Source: Bacteroidales bacterium
GTDB lineage: Bacteria > Bacteroidota > Bacteroidia > Bacteroidales > AUK083
DNA length: 33,689 nt
Direction: 5' to 3'
Assembly: GCA_021158345.1 (NCBI GenBank)
Contig: JAGGUV010000088.1
Coordinates: forward strand, 1-33,689
Under the pieces are notes generated by a model. It had not been told where the DNA came from. It did no database searches and was given only the letters and a program-made list of their open reading frames with translations. Both the position numbers and the translations under genes were made by a program. Shown one piece after another: positions 10,844 to 27,489 of this stretch. Position 1 is the stretch's first letter. The number at the start of each line of letters is the position of its first letter.

Positions 10844-12331
10844 ATGCGAAAATTTTTTCTTTATATTATTATTTCCTTTCTTCCCTCTGTTTCCATTGCT
10901 CAATATTTTTACGATTTTAATACTAATTGCAAAAAAGCTTATTCTGAAATCATCAGTCTGAAATTTGATGAAGGTAGAGAAATCCTTGAAAAAGAAAAAA
11001 TTATAAATCCTGAAAACAATATTCCTTATTATCTTGAAAATTATATAGATTTTCTGAAATTGTTTTTATCAGAAGATAAAAATGACTTTGAAAAATTAAA
11101 ACAAAATAAATACTCAAGAATCAACAGGTTGGAAAAAGGAGATAAAAATTCACCTTATTACAAATTTTGTTTGGCGGAAGTATCATTACAATGGGCTTTT
11201 TTAAAAGTAAAATATAAAAATTATATTTCAGCAGGCATTGAAATAAATCATTCATATAATTTATTAAATCAAAACAAAAAAAAATTCCCTGATTTTATTC
11301 TCAACAACAAAAGCCTCGGACTCTTACATGTTGTTTTCGGCTCAATACCTGATAATTATAAATGGTTAACAGATTTTATTGGTTTCAAAGGAACTATTGA
11401 CAAAGGTGTATCAGAACTTGAATCAATATTATATGCTGAAAATCAAAAAATTTTTGAGCCTGAATGCTTATTTTATCTTAGCCTTATCAATCTAAATATT
11501 AAAAGTAATAAAAAGGAAACTTTAAAATTCTACAATTTATTTTCATCACCTGAATACGACAAATATCTAAAAACAAATTTATTGCTGATATATTCAAAAA
11601 CAATAATAGCTTTGCACACAGGCAAAAACGAAGAAGCTTTAAAAACACTTCTTGCCAGGCCTACAGATAAAAAATATTTTAATTTCTATTATCTTGATTA
11701 TCTAACAGGAATAGCAAAACTTAACAAACTTGATATTTCTGCTGAAAAATATTTTCTGAAATATATTAAAAATTATAAAGGAAATAATTATAAACAAGCT
11801 GCATACGAAAAAATTGCCTGGTGTTATCTGATAAAAGGTGATATAAAAAATTTTTATAAAAATATTGAAAACATAAAATCTATTGAAAACACTGATATTG
11901 AAGCCGACAAGCAAGCTGTTTATGAAACAAAAAACAGGGCAGTCCCAAATATTTATTTATTAAAAGCCCGTTTATTATTTGATGGCGGATATTATAAAAA
12001 GGCTATTAATATTTTAAATAATGATGCTGTGCTTAAAACATTCAACGACACCCTGGAATACACATACAGAACAGGAAGAATATACGATGAAAGCGGAGAA
12101 AAAGATAAGGCAATTTTTTATTATGAAACAACAATAAAAAAAGGATTTGAGTCAAAAAAATATTTTGCAGCTAATTCCGCTCTGAAACTCGGTATTATTT
12201 ACGAAAATCAATCAAACATTAACTTAGCTAAAAAATATTATAACAAATGCCTTATGTGTAAAAATACTGAATACAGAAACAGTATCAGGCAAAAAGCAAA
12301 AGCCAGATTACAGCTTATTGAAAATAAATAA
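10844..12331 (+). CDS. Exported tetratricopeptide-repeat protein
   Basis: A 495-residue protein of unknown function. Residues 1-20 are a signal peptide (MRKFF, hydrophobic core, cleavage near SIAQ), so the product is exported, most likely periplasmic or surface-associated. The rest is helical and reads as degenerate TPR-like repeats, clearest in the last third: YLLKARLLFDGGYYKKAINI (about 370-390), YTYRTGRIYDESGEKDKAIFYYE (about 405-430) and ALKLGIIYENQSNINLAKKYYNK (about 447-470). The centre has a conserved-looking segment, LGLLHVVFGSIPDNYKWLTD followed by GFKGTIDKGVSELESIL, which recalls Iml2/DUF3808-type TPR proteins of Bacteroidota; this is recalled similarity only. It converges with the beta-barrel gene with 12 bp between the stops. 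A terminator-like hairpin lies just upstream. Confidence 0.82.
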   Translation: MRKFFLYIIISFLPSVSIAQYFYDFNTNCKKAYSEIISLKFDEGREILEKEKIINPENNIPYYLENYIDFLKLFLSEDKNDFEKLKQNKYSRINRLEKGDKNSPYYKFCLAEVSLQWAFLKVKYKNYISAGIEINHSYNLLNQNKKKFPDFILNNKSLGLLHVVFGSIPDNYKWLTDFIGFKGTIDKGVSELESILYAENQKIFEPECLFYLSLINLNIKSNKKETLKFYNLFSSPEYDKYLKTNLLLIYSKTIIALHTGKNEEALKTLLARPTDKKYFNFYYLDYLTGIAKLNKLDISAEKYFLKYIKNYKGNNYKQAAYEKIAWCYLIKGDIKNFYKNIENIKSIENTDIEADKQAVYETKNRAVPNIYLLKARLLFDGGYYKKAINILNNDAVLKTFNDTLEYTYRTGRIYDESGEKDKAIFYYETTIKKGFESKKYFAANSALKLGIIYENQSNINLAKKYYNKCLMCKNTEYRNSIRQKAKARLQLIENK

Positions 12332-12343
12332 ATTTTTTATTGA

Positions 12344-13030
12344 TTAGCGTTTAATATTATATTTCACACCCACACCCAAAGAAACAGAAAAATTCTTATA
12401 CTGATTATTTTCTGTTTTTGAATTTTCTGTAAGACCATAATTTACTCTTGGCTCAATTAAAAAATCAATTTTTTTGTAAACAGGTATTTCATAGCCCAAA
12501 CCTAAAGATAACCCGAAATCAAAATCATGTGTTTGGCTTTTAATGTCAATATCCCATTCTTCAAAAGAATAAGGGATTATATCCTGTCTGCCTTTTTCTC
12601 TTGCATATAATAGTTTGCCCAAATATATACCGGTATTAATGTTAAATCTTTTTTTCTTCCCTAATTTATACTTTAAAATTAAAGGCATTGTAATATATTT
12701 ATATTTTATAGTCCCGTTATGTCCCTCATCATCACACATATTTGAATTGTCAAAATATTTAAATCCTTTATCTTCATAAAGGACTTCTGTTTGCAATGAT
12801 AATTTCTTTGTAAGACCAAAATCAAAAAGAATTCCAAAATTTTTTCCCAAAACAATATCCCATCCATCAGAATAACCATACATATCATTCTTATTTACTG
12901 GTGAGCAGAAATAATATTTCCCGTGAAAACTAGAAATATTTGCCCCTGATTTTATTCCTATGCTTACTGCTTGAGATTTTATGCTATTAGCAAATAACAG
13001 CACTAATAAAACTAAAAATAATTTCTTCAT
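12344..13030 (-). CDS. Outer-membrane beta-barrel protein (PorT/OmpA-barrel type)
   Basis: A 228-residue exported barrel. Residues 1-19 form a signal peptide ending near IKSQA. The mature chain begins with VSIGIKSGANISSFHG, the usual opening strand of the PF13568-type outer-membrane barrel. Alternating strands follow, such as FGILFDFGLTKKLSLQTEVLYEDKGFKYF, KYITMPLILKYKLGKKKRFNINTGIYLG and DFGLSLGLGYEIPVYKKIDFLIEPRVNYGLTE. It ends with a short aromatic/basic strand SLGVGVKYNIKR. This size suits an eight-stranded barrel. Individual members have unknown roles. The gene lies between the converging TPR gene (12 bp) and the FadL-like gene on the same strand, from which a strong terminator separates it. 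Confidence 0.88.
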   Translation of the reverse strand: MKKLFLVLLVLLFANSIKSQAVSIGIKSGANISSFHGKYYFCSPVNKNDMYGYSDGWDIVLGKNFGILFDFGLTKKLSLQTEVLYEDKGFKYFDNSNMCDDEGHNGTIKYKYITMPLILKYKLGKKKRFNINTGIYLGKLLYAREKGRQDIIPYSFEEWDIDIKSQTHDFDFGLSLGLGYEIPVYKKIDFLIEPRVNYGLTENSKTENNQYKNFSVSLGVGVKYNIKR

Positions 13031-13165: not shown

Positions 13166-14599
13166 TTAAAATTTAAATCCAAGACTAACCATAAATTTAG
13201 AGGTTTTAAAATCATTTTTAACAGGGTTTGCATAATCATATAAATAATAATCACTGGATTCATTAGAAATAACATAAGCTACATCCACAAAATAATTTTG
13301 TTCTCTGAAACCCATTCCAAAAGTATAATAAGTACGTTCGGCATCATTAATATTATTTTTATAAGGGCTGCCATAAAAAGCATAACCACCTCTTAAATAA
13401 ATATTTTCTACTCTCCACTCAGTACCAATATGATAATTTGTTTGTGTTGTATATTTATTTCTAATGGCATCATTTTGGTCATAAAAATCTTGTTCTTCTC
13501 TTAAACGGGCATCAGAATAATCAACAAATTCCACATCAGCACTAATAAGTCCATGCGTTCCAATTATAAAAGCAATATTACCCATTGTCCGCATAGGTGT
13601 CTCCAGTTTGTAATCAAAAGCTCCATCAGGCGATGATTTATAATAATGTGTTCCATCATCAAATTGCGAACTAATAGAACTATACCAAGTATCAGTCATA
13701 TCATCATAAAAAGTAGGAGTGTGAACTGCCGCACCTAATCTTAACCAATCTACAGGTTTATAAATCATTCCAAACTTTAAATTAAACCCTGTGCCTTTAG
13801 TTTTTAAATTATTATGTAATGTAAAAGCATCAAAATATTCACTTTTATCTTCAGTATCAATTTCGGAATAACCACTTTCTTCGGAATAATAAATTTTAGG
13901 GAAACCTAATGTTACACCAAGAAAAAATTTATCGTTATAATTAGCGCCAAAAGAAACTACTGTTTCATCAATATATCCGTGAGAACTTACGGTTTTTCTC
14001 TGAAGCATACCTCCTTCCGGCATATCACAATAATAATTACCAAGAGTATCAGTAAAAATCAAATCTGTTTCATAAGCTAAATTAATATCAAAAGGATACA
14101 TATCTTGTAAATCCCCGGGATTTATACCTGTAATATTATCAAGATATTGAGTTAATAATGAACTACTATTATTAAAACCTTCTATCATCATCCTTTTGTT
14201 AAAGTTATTCAATCGGTTATAACCAAAGCCTAATTGAAAATTTTTCCAACCTGTTTCTTTGTGTGTATCAAAATTAAAAACCCCGCCAATATTATTAAAA
14301 TTAAAATTATATTTATTATCTTCATTTACAGTTCCATTATAATTCGATTCGGAATTGTTGACAAAAAGAGACGGAGTAATGCTAAACTCCGAACTTTTGA
14401 ATAATCCTATACCTGCAGGATTAGTGCTAAGTGTTGAGAAATCTGCTCCGAGCGCACCAAAAGCGCCGCCTATGCTTTCATACCTTGCAGTACCGCCAAA
14501 AAATGTCCTTGAATATCTTAGTGCATCGGTTTCGTTCTGTGCATTTACACCTATACTTATAAATAATGCTAATAATATTAATATCTTTATCTTTTTCAT
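13166..14599 (-). CDS. OmpP1/FadL/TodX-family outer-membrane transport protein
   Basis: A 477-residue outer-membrane barrel with a signal peptide over residues 1-20 (cleaved near VNAQ). The mature N-terminus, NETDALRYSRTFFGGTARYESIGGAFGALGADFSTLSTNPAGIG, is the FadL-type plug or hatch region with the hallmark NPAG turn. Long amphipathic strands follow, ending in GMGFREQNYFVDVAYVISN and KFMVSLGFKF with a terminal Phe suited to BAM recognition. FadL-family channels pass hydrophobic compounds across the outer membrane; the substrate here is unknown, and Bacteroidota copies are often labelled hemin receptor without proof. The gene is monocistronic by appearance, with a terminator hairpin 2 bp downstream and 88 bp to the next same-strand gene upstream. 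Confidence 0.9.
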   Translation of the reverse strand: MKKIKILILLALFISIGVNAQNETDALRYSRTFFGGTARYESIGGAFGALGADFSTLSTNPAGIGLFKSSEFSITPSLFVNNSESNYNGTVNEDNKYNFNFNNIGGVFNFDTHKETGWKNFQLGFGYNRLNNFNKRMMIEGFNNSSSLLTQYLDNITGINPGDLQDMYPFDINLAYETDLIFTDTLGNYYCDMPEGGMLQRKTVSSHGYIDETVVSFGANYNDKFFLGVTLGFPKIYYSEESGYSEIDTEDKSEYFDAFTLHNNLKTKGTGFNLKFGMIYKPVDWLRLGAAVHTPTFYDDMTDTWYSSISSQFDDGTHYYKSSPDGAFDYKLETPMRTMGNIAFIIGTHGLISADVEFVDYSDARLREEQDFYDQNDAIRNKYTTQTNYHIGTEWRVENIYLRGGYAFYGSPYKNNINDAERTYYTFGMGFREQNYFVDVAYVISNESSDYYLYDYANPVKNDFKTSKFMVSLGFKF

Positions 14600-14641: not shown

Positions 14642-14677
14642 AAAAATATGCGTTCTGAAAATTCAGAACGCATATTT
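14642..14677 (-). terminator. Intrinsic terminator of the Ser/Arg-rich lipoprotein gene
   Basis: A perfect 16-bp stem (14644-14659 with 14662-14677) with a two-base AA centre lies 10 bp after the stop. The core is ATGCGTTCTGAA and its complement. On the minus strand a five-T stretch overlaps the stem base and follows it. It would also form on the plus strand. Confidence 0.8.
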
Positions 14678-14687
14678 ATTAAAACAT

Positions 14688-16226
14688 TTATTTTCTTCTA
14701 CCAGAGCTTGAGCTGTGAGAACTTGATCTTGAAGAAGAACTCCTGCTTGTTGATGGACTTGAATATGAAGACCTTGTTGATGATGGTCTTGAATAAGAAC
14801 TCCTACTTGAAGAAGAACTTCTGCTCGTCGATGGTCTGGAATATGAACTTCTCGTTGGTGTTGAATGCGAAGGAGTTTTTCTTGAAGGAGTATATCTTAT
14901 TTTACTATTCGTTGACCTTTTGTTTATAGTAGCTCCTGATTTTTTTGAACTATTAGTTCTTCTGTAATTATTATATTTTGGGCTAACATATTCATGACTT
15001 GATTTTGGTCTTGAATAACTCGGCCTTGTATATGTTTTAGGTTTACTGTATTTAGGTCTTGGTTTTGCATATTTTTTAGTAACATTAGTGTTTTTTCTCT
15101 GCGGTTTAGGCTTTGAATAAGTCTTTACTGAAGATCTTTTTACAGTATTATTAGTATTTTTTTTATTTAATCTTTGATTAGTAATTCCCTTTTTAACTCT
15201 TTGTGGTTTTTGTTTTACCAGAGTTTTGTTAACTTTTTTAACAGGCTCCTGTCTTACAACCGTTTTTGTTTTAACAGGTTTTTGTCTTGCAACAGTCTTT
15301 GTTTTAACTTGTTCTTGTCTTAAAGCAGTATTACCAATTCGTTTATTAACAGAAGACTTTACTCTTTCTTTATTATCAGGAACAATTCTTTTATTATTAT
15401 TAACATTTCTTCCTGCAGAAGCTGTAGCATCTCTCTTATTATAAACTGACTGTTGATAAATTCTATCCGAATTATCCTTTGGGTTTCCATATCTTCCACC
15501 ACGTCTATTACCGCTACCATCATTAGAAGTCAATGTACGTCTGGGACCGTAGAAATAATTATTATGATTTCCCTCATAATAATTTATATGCCAAAAATTT
15601 CCATAACCATAATAACCATAACCATAATAATAAGGTTCCCAACCATAATTATAGAAAGGATGTCCATAATATCCAAAACCCCAACCGTAATAAGGTCTAT
15701 ACCATGATGTAGAAGTTAAAAGCCATAAATCAGGCATAGAATAAAAACTCATACTTAGATAATATGGATTATAATTATACCAGTAAAGGTTTGTATAATA
15801 ATCATCGTAATAACTAAAACCTAAATAAGGATAATGAAATCTTCTCAAACGTGAAGCATAAGTATAATCATAAAAATCATCAATATCATTATTATAATAA
15901 TTATTTGTAATATAAGTATTCCCGTCTTCATCGGCTTCAGAATATGACTCAACAATAGTATCTTGTGGTTGATATTCTTCATTTTGAACATATTGTACAT
16001 CATCAGTAATAATAACACTATCTTCCTCTGATGATTTTACAGAAGCCTCTTCGGAAGATTGTACTATCTCAGAATTTGCTTTGACTTTTTTATATGTATA
16101 ATGAGGAACAGTTTTTTTTGAATAATAAACATCATCAACATATCCTGTTCGAGCCTGATATGTTGAAGAACAAGCAGCAAATAATACTGCTGAAAATAAA
16201 AACAAGTATTTAAATAATTTTTTCAT
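14688..16226 (-). CDS. Low-complexity Tyr-, Lys/Arg- and Ser-rich lipoprotein
   Basis: A 512-residue protein of unknown function with strong compositional zoning. Residues 1-19 are a lipoprotein signal with lipobox FAAC (Cys19). An acidic Ser/Glu segment follows to about 115, then a Tyr/Gly/Trp/Asn-rich zone (about 118-230, with YYGYGYYGYGNF). A strongly basic Lys/Arg/Gln/Thr zone comes next (about 240-420). It ends in a Ser/Arg/Pro tail (about 420-512) built from SRPSTSRSSS-like units. In the basic zone, (R)QxxVKTKTVx repeats come from a 33-bp tandem repeat. The charge and aromatic content suggest binding to polysaccharide, nucleic acid or cell wall; this is inference. A strong Shine-Dalgarno lies 7 bp before the ATG. 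It has its own terminator. Confidence 0.8.
   Translation of the reverse strand: MKKLFKYLFLFSAVLFAACSSTYQARTGYVDDVYYSKKTVPHYTYKKVKANSEIVQSSEEASVKSSEEDSVIITDDVQYVQNEEYQPQDTIVESYSEADEDGNTYITNNYYNNDIDDFYDYTYASRLRRFHYPYLGFSYYDDYYTNLYWYNYNPYYLSMSFYSMPDLWLLTSTSWYRPYYGWGFGYYGHPFYNYGWEPYYYGYGYYGYGNFWHINYYEGNHNNYFYGPRRTLTSNDGSGNRRGGRYGNPKDNSDRIYQQSVYNKRDATASAGRNVNNNKRIVPDNKERVKSSVNKRIGNTALRQEQVKTKTVARQKPVKTKTVVRQEPVKKVNKTLVKQKPQRVKKGITNQRLNKKNTNNTVKRSSVKTYSKPKPQRKNTNVTKKYAKPRPKYSKPKTYTRPSYSRPKSSHEYVSPKYNNYRRTNSSKKSGATINKRSTNSKIRYTPSRKTPSHSTPTRSSYSRPSTSRSSSSSRSSYSRPSSTRSSYSSPSTSRSSSSRSSSHSSSSGRRK
15246..15327 (-). repeat. 33-bp tandem repeat, about 2.5 copies, inside the lipoprotein gene
   Basis: Units at 15246-15278 and 15279-15311 and a partial third unit to 15327 share the pattern encoding RQxxVKTKTVx. 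Copies differ by a few bases each. The repeat keeps the reading frame, so changes in copy number would lengthen or shorten the basic zone by 11 residues. Confidence 0.65.
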
Positions 16227-16233
16227 GGCTTTG

Positions 16234-16240
16234 TCCTCCT
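16234..16240 (-). promoter_or_regulatory. Canonical Shine-Dalgarno of the lipoprotein gene
   Basis: On the minus strand AGGAGGA lies 7 nt before the ATG at 16226, an ideal position. No other gene start I inspected in this window has such a site; starts here are mostly preceded by A/T-rich sequence, as is usual in Bacteroidota. Confidence 0.75.
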
Positions 16241-16336: not shown

Positions 16337-17812
16337 ATGGCTACAAATTTTTCAAAAAAAGAAGAAAATTATTCACAGTGGTACAATGATATAGTTTTAA
16401 AAGCAGATTTAGCTGAGTACTCAGCAGTGCGTGGTTGTATGGTAATAAAACCATACGGTTATTCAATATGGGAAAAAATTCAGGCAACTTTAGATAAAAT
16501 GTTTAAAGATACAGGACATTCAAATGCTTATTTTCCATTATTTATACCAAAATCATTTTTTAGCAGAGAAGCTGACCATGTAAAAGGTTTTGCAAAAGAA
16601 TGCGCTGTAGTTACTCATTACCGTTTAAAAACTTCTGATGACGGAAAAGAAATTATTGTTGATGAAAACGCAAAATTAGAAGAGGAGTTAATTATAAGAC
16701 CCACATCAGAAACAATTATTTGGGATACATATAAAAAATGGATACAATCGTACAGAGATTTACCATTAAAAATAAATCAGTGGGCAAATGTAGTACGCTG
16801 GGAAATGCGAACAAGATTATTTTTAAGAACTGCTGAATTTTTATGGCAGGAAGGACATACTGCTCATGCAACAAAAGAAGAAGCCTTAGAAGAAGCTCAA
16901 ACAATGTTAAATATATATGCTAATTTTGCAGAAAACTGGATGGCAATACCTGTTATTAAGGGTATTAAAACTGAGTCTGAACGTTTTGCCGGTGCAATAG
17001 ATACTTATTGCATAGAAGCATTAATGCAGGATGGTAAAGCATTACAATGTGGAACCTCTCACTTCCTCGGTCAAAATTTTGCTAAAGCTTTTGATGTAAA
17101 ATTTTTAAATAAAGAAAACAAATTAGATTATGTATGGGCAACCTCCTGGGGTGTTTCTACAAGATTAATAGGGGCATTAATTATGTCTCATTCCGATAAT
17201 AAAGGCTTGGTGTTACCTCCAAAATTAGCTCCTATTCAGGTTGTTATTATTCCAATATTTAAAAACAAAGAACAATTAGATGCTATTAGTATAAAAGCTC
17301 TTGAAATTAAAAATTTATTAGAGGATAAAGGTATTAGCGTAAAATATGATGACAGAGATACCAGGAAACCGGGATATAAATTTTCAGAATATGAATTTAA
17401 AGGTATACCAATAAGATTAGTTCTCGGACCTCGTGACCTTGAAAACAACACTATTGAATTAGCAAGAAGAGATACGCTTGAAAAAAACATTTATCAACAA
17501 ACTGATATTATTACTAAAATAGAAAACTTATTGTCAATAATACAGAAAAACATATTCCAAAAAGCGCTTAATTATACTGATAACAACACGTATAAAGCAG
17601 ACACATGGGAAGAATTTAAAGATATTATTGAAAATAAAGGAGGATTTGTTTTTGCTCATTGGGATGGTACTGCTGAAACAGAACAAAAAATAAAAGAAGA
17701 AACCAAGGCAACAATTAGAACTATTCCTTTAAATAATCCTTTAGAAGAAGGAAAATGTATTTATTCGGGCAAGCCATCAAAACAAAGAGTAATTTTTGCT
17801 AAAGCTTATTAA
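16337..17812 (+). CDS. proS: Prolyl-tRNA synthetase, archaeal/eukaryotic type (ProS type 3)
   Basis: A 491-residue class II synthetase charging tRNA(Pro) with proline. It lacks the editing insertion of the long bacterial ProS and follows the short archaeal/eukaryotic layout. The N-terminal catalytic core has [18 protein letters not shown] and [16 protein letters not shown]. Motif 2 appears as [28 protein letters not shown], and the motif 3 region reaches [25 protein letters not shown]. The anticodon-binding domain follows (about 300-400), then a C-terminal domain ending in a terminal Tyr, as the type requires. Only one Cys (GKCIYSGK) remains where some members bind zinc with four. This ProS type is normal for Bacteroidota, so it is not evidence of recent transfer. 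It converges with dsbD. Confidence 0.96.
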
Positions 17813-26658: not shown

Positions 26659-27489
26659 TCAAAAACAATTGCTCTTATTATATTTTTTTGGTATTCTGAA
26701 TGGAAATTTTAAACTTTTTCCAACAGAAACTTTTTTGTGGTCTATGTAAATTTTAAACTTTTTCTCAGCGTTTATTTCAATTTTATAAGAAAACGGAAAC
26801 AGTTGATTGTTAACAGGTTTCTTATTAAAATATTTTATTGAAAATTTTTTGTCTTTACCTTTTGCGATTTCTTTAATATCAATTTTTTCAATTTTAAAAT
26901 TTTTGGGGTTAAGCCAAATATGTTGAACTGGAATTACAAAGTTACTCTTATTATCTTTGATATACTTTTTAATTTTATGTCTTTTAATAGTAGAAAGTTT
27001 ATATCTTTTATTATCAATAGAAGCTTTAAAATGTTTATTATCATAATGATCAAAATCATTACCAATCAATAAAGATTGAATCATATTAAAATCTAAAGCA
27101 TTATTAATATAATCATTAATAAAACTAAAATCGCTAACAATATAATTTTTATCAATTCTATTTAAAAATTTTATAGTATCCTGTGTTATTAAAAGTCTGA
27201 CAGCTTCTATTCCAAGAGCCGGAGAAAAAGACAACCATATAACACTGTCTTTTTTAATCCTTAACTGACCATTAAATGAATATTTACTTTTATCTTCTTT
27301 GTAATCGACCGAAAATTTAGCATAAAGAGTATTAAAACAAAATTCGTTTTTTTTCAACTTTCGGAATAAATAATCTTGTCCCTGTTCTTTTATTGGAGCT
27401 TTAATAATTTTTCTTGAATGACTACAAGAAGCAATAATAAAAGCAACAAAAACAGAAGAAATAATTATTTGATGTTTAATTTTATTCAT
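26659..27489 (-). CDS. DUF4292 lipoprotein
   Basis: A 276-residue lipoprotein with a signal ending in the lipobox region FIIASC (Cys22). The mature protein matches the Bacteroidota DUF4292 pattern: FNTLYAKFSVDYKEDKSKY, then FNGQLRIKKDSVIWLSFSP and ALGIEAVRLLITQDTIKFLNRIDKNYIVSDF, then IDHKKVSVGKSLKFPFRIPKKY at the end. The repeated antiparallel strands suggest a LolA/LolB-like half-barrel able to hold a lipid or lipoprotein tail; this is inference from pattern. Its start overlaps the end of the TPR lipoprotein gene by 8 bp, indicating translational coupling, and EnvC follows 14 bp later. No experimental function for the family is known to me. Confidence 0.88.
   Translation of the reverse strand: MNKIKHQIIISSVFVAFIIASCSHSRKIIKAPIKEQGQDYLFRKLKKNEFCFNTLYAKFSVDYKEDKSKYSFNGQLRIKKDSVIWLSFSPALGIEAVRLLITQDTIKFLNRIDKNYIVSDFSFINDYINNALDFNMIQSLLIGNDFDHYDNKHFKASIDNKRYKLSTIKRHKIKKYIKDNKSNFVIPVQHIWLNPKNFKIEKIDIKEIAKGKDKKFSIKYFNKKPVNNQLFPFSYKIEINAEKKFKIYIDHKKVSVGKSLKFPFRIPKKYNKSNCF

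Follow-up and report, generated by a model that had tools for sequence, protein, structure and literature searches.

The gene at 14688..16226 (minus strand) of the window, the whole stretch of 33,689 nucleotides that was analysed, encodes an aromatic and polycationic lipoprotein of 512 residues and is one copy of an old family that is mostly missed by profiles, not an orphan. Relatives recur across the phylum upstream of a gene for an outer-membrane barrel with the FadL fold. With a probability that comes near an even chance but stays short of it, the two genes would form an outer-membrane module spread over the phylum, in which a disordered partner is held by the barrel and sets its polycationic tail on an anionic polymer of the envelope.

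The reading frame begins at an ATG that follows, at 8 nt, the Shine-Dalgarno sequence AGGAGG (16235..16240), and the gene is defined by this frame together with its homologues and positional relatives. Residues 1-18 (16173..16226) are a signal peptide that runs into the lipobox LFAA-C19, whose cysteine is aligned in the homologues. The N-terminal motif DDVYY (residues 31-35; 16122..16136), typical of the window's class in the alignment of relatives, is followed by an acidic zone (residues 36-117; 15876..16121), a Tyr/Gly/Trp zone (residues 118-240; 15507..15875), a basic Lys/Arg/Gln zone (residues 241-420; 14967..15506) and a Ser/Arg/Pro tail (residues 421-512; 14691..14966) with the C-terminal end GRRK, all on the minus strand. 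Net charge sets off the acidic and basic zones, and alignment and composition the zone between them. Residues 19-117 carry a net charge of -14, and residues 118-240 are 27% Tyr and 11% Gly with a net charge of -1; the Lys/Arg/Gln zone reaches +44 summed over two blocks (+10 for residues 241-300 and +34 for residues 301-420, where Lys makes up 22%), and residues 421-512 are 43% Ser and 16% Arg with a net charge of +21. Tandem-repeat finding gave repeats of 11 residues (33-nt period, 2.8 copies; 15236..15329, minus strand) and, inside the Ser/Arg tail, of 10 residues (30-nt period, 2.8 copies; 14728-14810, minus strand). The zones that the earlier note had described from the letters of this DNA (lipobox, acidic, Tyr/Gly/Trp, Lys/Arg/Gln and Ser/Arg/Pro) are all found in the product, and its 11-residue repeats are real.

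The zones were compared with 2,000 shuffles of the mature window protein. Aromatic residues reach 21 of 40 in their densest segment, and net charge falls to -13 in the most acidic one; both values lie beyond chance, the corresponding extremes of the shuffles being 17 and -8. The most basic segment, at 15, does not exceed chance (shuffle maximum 18, mean 11.1) and is unremarkable in this comparison because the entire protein is basic. The extreme composition, and a core profile that reaches just 13 of 296 genomes, might suggest that the frame is a spurious or degenerate low-complexity stretch. The probability of such a reading is negligible: the chance of 512 stop-free codons at a given start is about 7e-20 at 28% GC, the ribosome site is complete, the motifs are conserved, and relatives are annotated as CDS in two named genomes. 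Conservation rules it out, and the strongest evidence for a real gene is the recurrence of motifs or zone order in 93 other loci. One copy of the gene was found in its own genome at the sensitivities of the searches used, and scanning the window for Rfam families and tRNAs gave no hit.

Single-sequence searches find homologues in 21 of 59 other genomes of the same order (22 of 60 with the own genome) and on 13 named Bacteroidota contigs, the best of these relatives coming from a Bacteroidales MAG; five loci in which BLAST left the gene unlabelled have an ORF of its type upstream of the barrel as well. Classes are given here as labelled by the search tool, the window's own class being probably Bacteroidia. 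In a core alignment of 31 sequences Y123 and R129 are invariant, D31 and Y34 are at least 90% conserved, and the best conserved stretch, YDYxYxSRLRRFHxP...YYDxYYTNxYWYNYxPY, lies in the Tyr/Gly/Trp zone. The core profile matches 13 of 296 genomes of the phylum, own genome included, and a profile of the FadL-like barrel matches 233 of the same 296. The barrel profile but not the core profile matches 220 genomes, and 58 of these supplied one locus each, selected by the barrel and nothing else: 27 belong to the same class and 31 to other classes, most have one of the stronger barrel matches, and only one comes from the large family f82. All 58 carry a gene of this type ahead of the barrel gene. 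Two regions of a further genome, G076, were fetched besides these 58; its core match lies on another contig. The earlier note had expected a protein of this composition to evolve fast and to escape homology searches, and the reach of the profile (13 of 296 genomes) against that of position (58 of 58 examined) agrees with it. Among the 63 of 296 genomes without a barrel the core profile matches none, a co-absence of both genes that is weak evidence because the profile finds few (13 of 233) even where the barrel is present.

A fixed composition test was applied that asks for the order acidic, aromatic, basic, with an aromatic peak, a positive second half and a polar tail. It is passed by 54 of the 58 barrel-chosen loci, the other four (L082, L087, L107 and L128) having been accepted by eye, and by 89 of 94 family members versus 1 of 564 other ORFs in the same loci, where every other mechanically called ORF of 180 aa or more, without curation, served as a control. 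The failures are L028, L082, L087, L107 and L128; ORF starts are too long in several loci (L087, L107, L120 and L128), which may explain most of them. Five of the 58 picks (L105, L110, L112, L113 and L130) were exchanged after the fact, when the control pointed next door; before this exchange the test was passed by 85 of 94 members and 4 of 568 controls. In L090, too, the initial choice of upstream ORF was replaced, because the barrel ORF there ran too far upstream. The counts are not independent, since rows L048-L051 and some others are close relatives.

The genes first picked in the five exchanged loci are small CxSCH lipoproteins, and they were rejected as orthologues because the control put the likely relative one gene further upstream; that of L130 is the single control ORF that passes the test. 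They belong to a set of third small lipoproteins that lie between the relative and the barrel in six of the 31 other-class loci. Five carry CxSCH (haem-c-like) and a GR-x-R end (L105:1704-2336, L110:3825-4505, L112:3820-4500, L113:4079-4861 and L130:1772-2359), the sixth is without CxSCH and ends in GRR (L125:4182-4703), and a WW patch is present in all six.

The sequence CYT follows the signal peptide in 29 of 31 other-class proteins; in L128 it is found further in, because the start is too long, and L135 has no CYT. G-C-Y-T is invariant among 16 aligned other-class proteins. A profile comparison of the same-class core with the other classes gives 94.7%, over 16 columns only, so that it is chiefly position and composition that speak for homology between classes.

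Several features hold over the family. The zone order is kept in 89 of 94 members, the second half is positive in 94 of 94 (net +5 to +61), and an Arg lies within the last four residues in 87 of 94. The strict motif DDxY[YF] is found in 42 of 63 same-class members versus 2 of 31 others, at a nearly constant distance from the cysteine (Cys to DD, median 11, IQR 11-12, n=51 where both patterns were found). A pattern finds the lipobox in 81 of 94 members, or 84 with three more read by eye; in L087 the pattern picked a cysteine before the real start, and the real lipobox comes after it. About 10 of 94 (the 13 pattern failures minus the three read by eye) have no lipobox, and of these ten, five keep the strict DDxY[YF], four have a variant, and L059 has none. 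The pair is also present, with a non-lipid signal peptide and DDxYF, in Parabacteroides distasonis (WP_008779584.1, 'hypothetical protein'), Bacteroides finegoldii (WP_007758943.1, which adjoins a 'hemin receptor'), Prevotella sp. oral taxon 299 and Phocaeicola massiliensis, these four named gut records being all those of a plasmid collection with a barrel match at E up to 1e-5. Two annotated genomes label the parts 'hypothetical protein' and 'hemin receptor' or 'outer membrane protein transport protein'. A model of the core built from 31 sequences is predicted to be mostly disordered (mean pLDDT 46.7, with 11 of 211 residues at 70 or more), and the only short helix, at about residues 119-131, is predicted with low confidence. 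In L059 another lipoprotein, alike in its N-terminal layout (CSSTSNLADDVYY), starts downstream of the relative (L059:4921-5429) and is cut by the contig end; it is a possible tandem copy.

The usual gene order in the window's class is proS (divergent), lipoprotein gene, barrel. In the window the barrel gene lies at 13166..14599 (minus strand), and the gene at 16337..17812 (plus strand) is one that we take to be proS, for prolyl-tRNA synthetase, a name carried over from the earlier note. The barrel gene comes directly after the lipoprotein gene, in the same orientation, in 58 of the 62 loci that are same-class or named and in 31 of 31 other-class loci, with a median gap of 46.5 nt in the former and 41 nt in the latter, counted in five other-class loci from the small extra gene. 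A divergent proS within 1 kb is found in 57 of 62 and 5 of 31 loci, respectively. The synteny with both genes that the earlier note proposed to check is therefore real and broad. Among the four exceptions for the barrel, L033 and L048 reach the contig end, L059 has 509 bases left, which hold the start of the second gene of the same kind, and G076 has its best barrel match on another contig (L096 and L136) with both genes kept, the sole such genome among those examined. Between the lipoprotein and barrel genes of the window lies a hairpin resembling an intrinsic terminator, with a perfect 15-bp stem (14644..14677, minus strand). Hairpins of this kind occur in 4 of 64 gaps, the window's included (3 of 63 others), versus 0.3 expected, and the one seen here may mean that the two genes share no transcript in this genome.

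Elsewhere in the window, a TPR protein gene (10844-12331) in the opposite orientation lies past the barrel gene and a gene at 12344-13030; it had matches in 9 of the 34 loci that were retrieved first. A DUF4292 protein (26659-27489; E 3.8e-42) stands between a TPR protein and an M23 peptidase in a cluster that looks envelope-related.

Database searches place the lipoprotein in no family, which bears out the earlier note in assigning none. Pfam gives no match for the window protein at E up to 1, and NCBIfam matches its signal peptide only: the PG1828 family lipoprotein model (NF050142) scores 16.4 bits against a cut-off of 50 and spans residues 1-30, mostly signal peptide, so that membership was rejected. 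Neither Pfam nor NCBIfam yields a hit over a cut-off for eight proteins upstream of FadL-like genes. A single-sequence PDB search with the window protein returned ribosomal L23a at E 0.69, which was set aside as an artefact of basic composition. The core profile of 31 relatives matches nothing in the PDB at E up to 1, solved BamH chains included, in a search at the level of sequence that a remote relation could escape. A search of the open-access literature for a description of the protein and barrel pair found none, and it gave no confirmation of 'vitellogenin II' as a label for such genes.

The neighbouring barrel is more tractable. Its AlphaFold2 model is confident (pLDDT 90.2, pTM 0.84), and its match to solved folds indicates a FadL-type 14-strand barrel, as a comparison of whole folds and not a count of single strands. 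The top three Foldseek matches are BamG of three species (9hiv_F, 9hjm_F and 9n2d_B; E 1.2e-16 to 2.1e-14), followed by TodX (3.0e-14) and FadL, a small margin relative to the third BamG chain (2.1e-14). VIA-align ties BamG (Z 29.5-30.6) with FadL, TodX and CymD, over a range of Z from 29.2 to 33.3. At the level of sequence, a barrel profile run against the PDB matches only 3dwo, PorV and CymD at E up to 1, with the BamG chains, which are present there, unmatched; Pfam PF03349 gives 25 bits against a cut-off of 29.7. The genome's own BamG is a different gene, of 428 aa (L060:1003-2289; E 2.8e-60 to 9hiv_F), directly downstream of an ORF that we take to be a coaX-like pantothenate kinase. An identification of the window barrel as BamG was therefore rejected, and the barrel is a separate paralogue.

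Its N-terminus is longer than that of FadL. Full-length FadL-family transport chains align from residue 28-32 of the barrel model and BamG chains from residue 23-27, which leaves about 8 residues beyond the FadL start if the signal peptide is cut before Q21 (a cut placed by eye). Within the stretch QNETDALRYS (residues 21-30), Q21 and S30 are invariant and D25-R28 are at least 90% conserved in 26 barrels, in which the NPA motif (N60, P61, A62) is also invariant. Of 90 barrels, 58 have the strict form of the N-terminal motif; Prevotella has lost the motif but not the pair. BamG is set apart from the transport FadLs by its authors; its N-terminus reaches about 10 residues further than that of FadL, runs past the lateral opening and contacts the N-terminus of BamH (PMC12578637). 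The Bacteroidetes-specific proteins listed in 2007 (PMC1887533) include a 'putative hemin receptor' of 554 aa (NP_905755), which may be a relative of the barrel.

Surface lipoproteins of Bacteroidota carry acidic residues right after the cysteine, at least two in the first six, according to two reports (PMC5080379, PMC12578637). No family member with a lipobox has two acidic residues among the six after the cysteine (0 of 81; 74 have none and 7 have one), and the window protein itself has no such surface-export (LES) signal after C19. With the acidic export signal in 0 of 81, a surface location is unsupported, so that the place on the cell surface suggested in the earlier note is not borne out; a lipoprotein on the periplasmic side would be expected, by a rule that comes from few species. 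The lipid anchor that the same note proposed is present in the window copy, although it is missing in about 10 of 94 homologues and in the four named gut species.

The proposal made at first, a surface-exposed lipoprotein that forms a matrix or binds polyanions (LPS, eDNA or capsule) and whose proximity to the barrel is incidental, is decidedly unlikely. It would account for the lipobox of the window copy, the aromatic zone would suit contacts with sugars, and a tail that is positive in 94 of 94 members fits the binding of a polyanion, judging from composition. The export signal in 0 of 81 lipobox members speaks against it, by a rule drawn from few species; so do the loss of the anchor in about 10 of 94 members and the four named species, and a recurring neighbourhood that is unexpected for a fast-changing matrix protein. 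A lipobox without a surface signal agrees with a tether, an outer-membrane lipoprotein that faces the periplasm, its basic tail binding peptidoglycan independently of the barrel and the gene order reflecting shared regulation. Such a tether would also explain a long basic tail in which the sign of the charge is constant and the sequence changes, and the hairpin between the two genes here is in its favour; it is nonetheless unlikely, since the anchor is lost in several lineages that keep the pair, and the spacing of about 40 nt to the barrel gene in most loci points to a link with the barrel.

The barrel might also move a hydrophobic compound, inward or outward, as FadL and TodX do, and the lipoprotein would be an accessory, a periplasmic acceptor or a gate. 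The fold of the FadL family, the NPA motif invariant in 26 barrels and the operon-like spacing are what such a transporter would show. It is made quite improbable by the lipoprotein core, in which no folded binding domain is predicted, and by the extended N-terminus of the barrel, which resembles that of BamG, a protein set apart from the transport FadLs by those who described it (PMC12578637). Compared with the FadL, TodX and OmpP1 transporters (PF03349), the window barrel shares the fold and the NPA motif; unlike them, it falls below the Pfam cut-off, is N-terminally extended and adjoins an aromatic and basic protein. We know of no counterpart of that protein in FadL systems.

In the preferred reading, that of a two-gene module, the exported product, which carries a lipid in most cases, has a core for which no independent fold is predicted. 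Its N-terminus and aromatic core would dock on the barrel, most likely near the N-terminal extension of the latter and much as the N-terminus of BamH docks on BamG. The polycationic Ser/Arg tail, on the periplasmic side, would bind peptidoglycan or the inner, anionic face of the membrane, and the module as a whole may fix, plug or gate the barrel. Some lineages have lost the lipid and kept the pair, which suggests that the barrel, and not the lipid, probably holds the protein. In favour of the module are the recurring pairing of the genes at short gaps, the kept zone order and positive tail, the steady Cys-to-DD spacing, the disorder predicted for the core, the FadL fold and conserved N-terminal stretch of the barrel, and the export signal in 0 of 81 members. 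Gene order alone is not binding, and physical contact between the protein and the barrel is inferred. Several observations count against the module: the hairpin between the genes here, the separated genes of G076, the rarity of DDxY[YF] outside the window's class, the small size of the Foldseek preference for BamG, the VIA-align tie, and a barrel motif that is strict in 58 of 90.

The closest parallel is BamG-BamH of the Bacteroidota BAM complex, as presented in two reports (PMC12578637, PMC12611786), where a FadL-fold barrel with an extended N-terminus has a lipoprotein partner; the window barrel shares the fold and a conserved stretch there. The differences are that sequence searches do not join the window barrel to BamG chains, and that its lipoprotein lacks acidic residues after the cysteine and has a core predicted to be disordered, unlike BamH-K, which are acidic after the cysteine and folded. 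The RcsF-OMP complexes of Escherichia coli (PMC4942254) serve as a working analogy for a lipoprotein held by a barrel, with no sequence relation claimed. YbjP is likewise an accessory lipoprotein recently found on an outer-membrane protein; it differs in being an E. coli protein placed by cryo-EM on the periplasmic surface of TolC (PMC13082787). A barrel with a cognate lipoprotein is of a known kind; a partner that lacks a fold and is kept across a phylum through its composition is, to the extent of the searches made, a new variant.

A fuller version of the module is put forward more tentatively. It would be a system of the whole phylum unseen by databases, made of a FadL-fold barrel other than BamG and a constant, essentially unfolded partner that docks by its N-terminus and Tyr-rich core and extends a long polycationic tail to peptidoglycan or LPS. 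Selection would preserve the charge, the order of the zones and the neighbourhood, and the sequence would drift past the reach of profiles. If the complex is real, Bacteroidota, common gut bacteria included, keep an outer-membrane module that has been overlooked, and the role of the FadL paralogue that is not BamG becomes directly testable. If true, it would also show clearly how an ancient protein can be maintained through its composition, the order of its charges and its position in place of its sequence.
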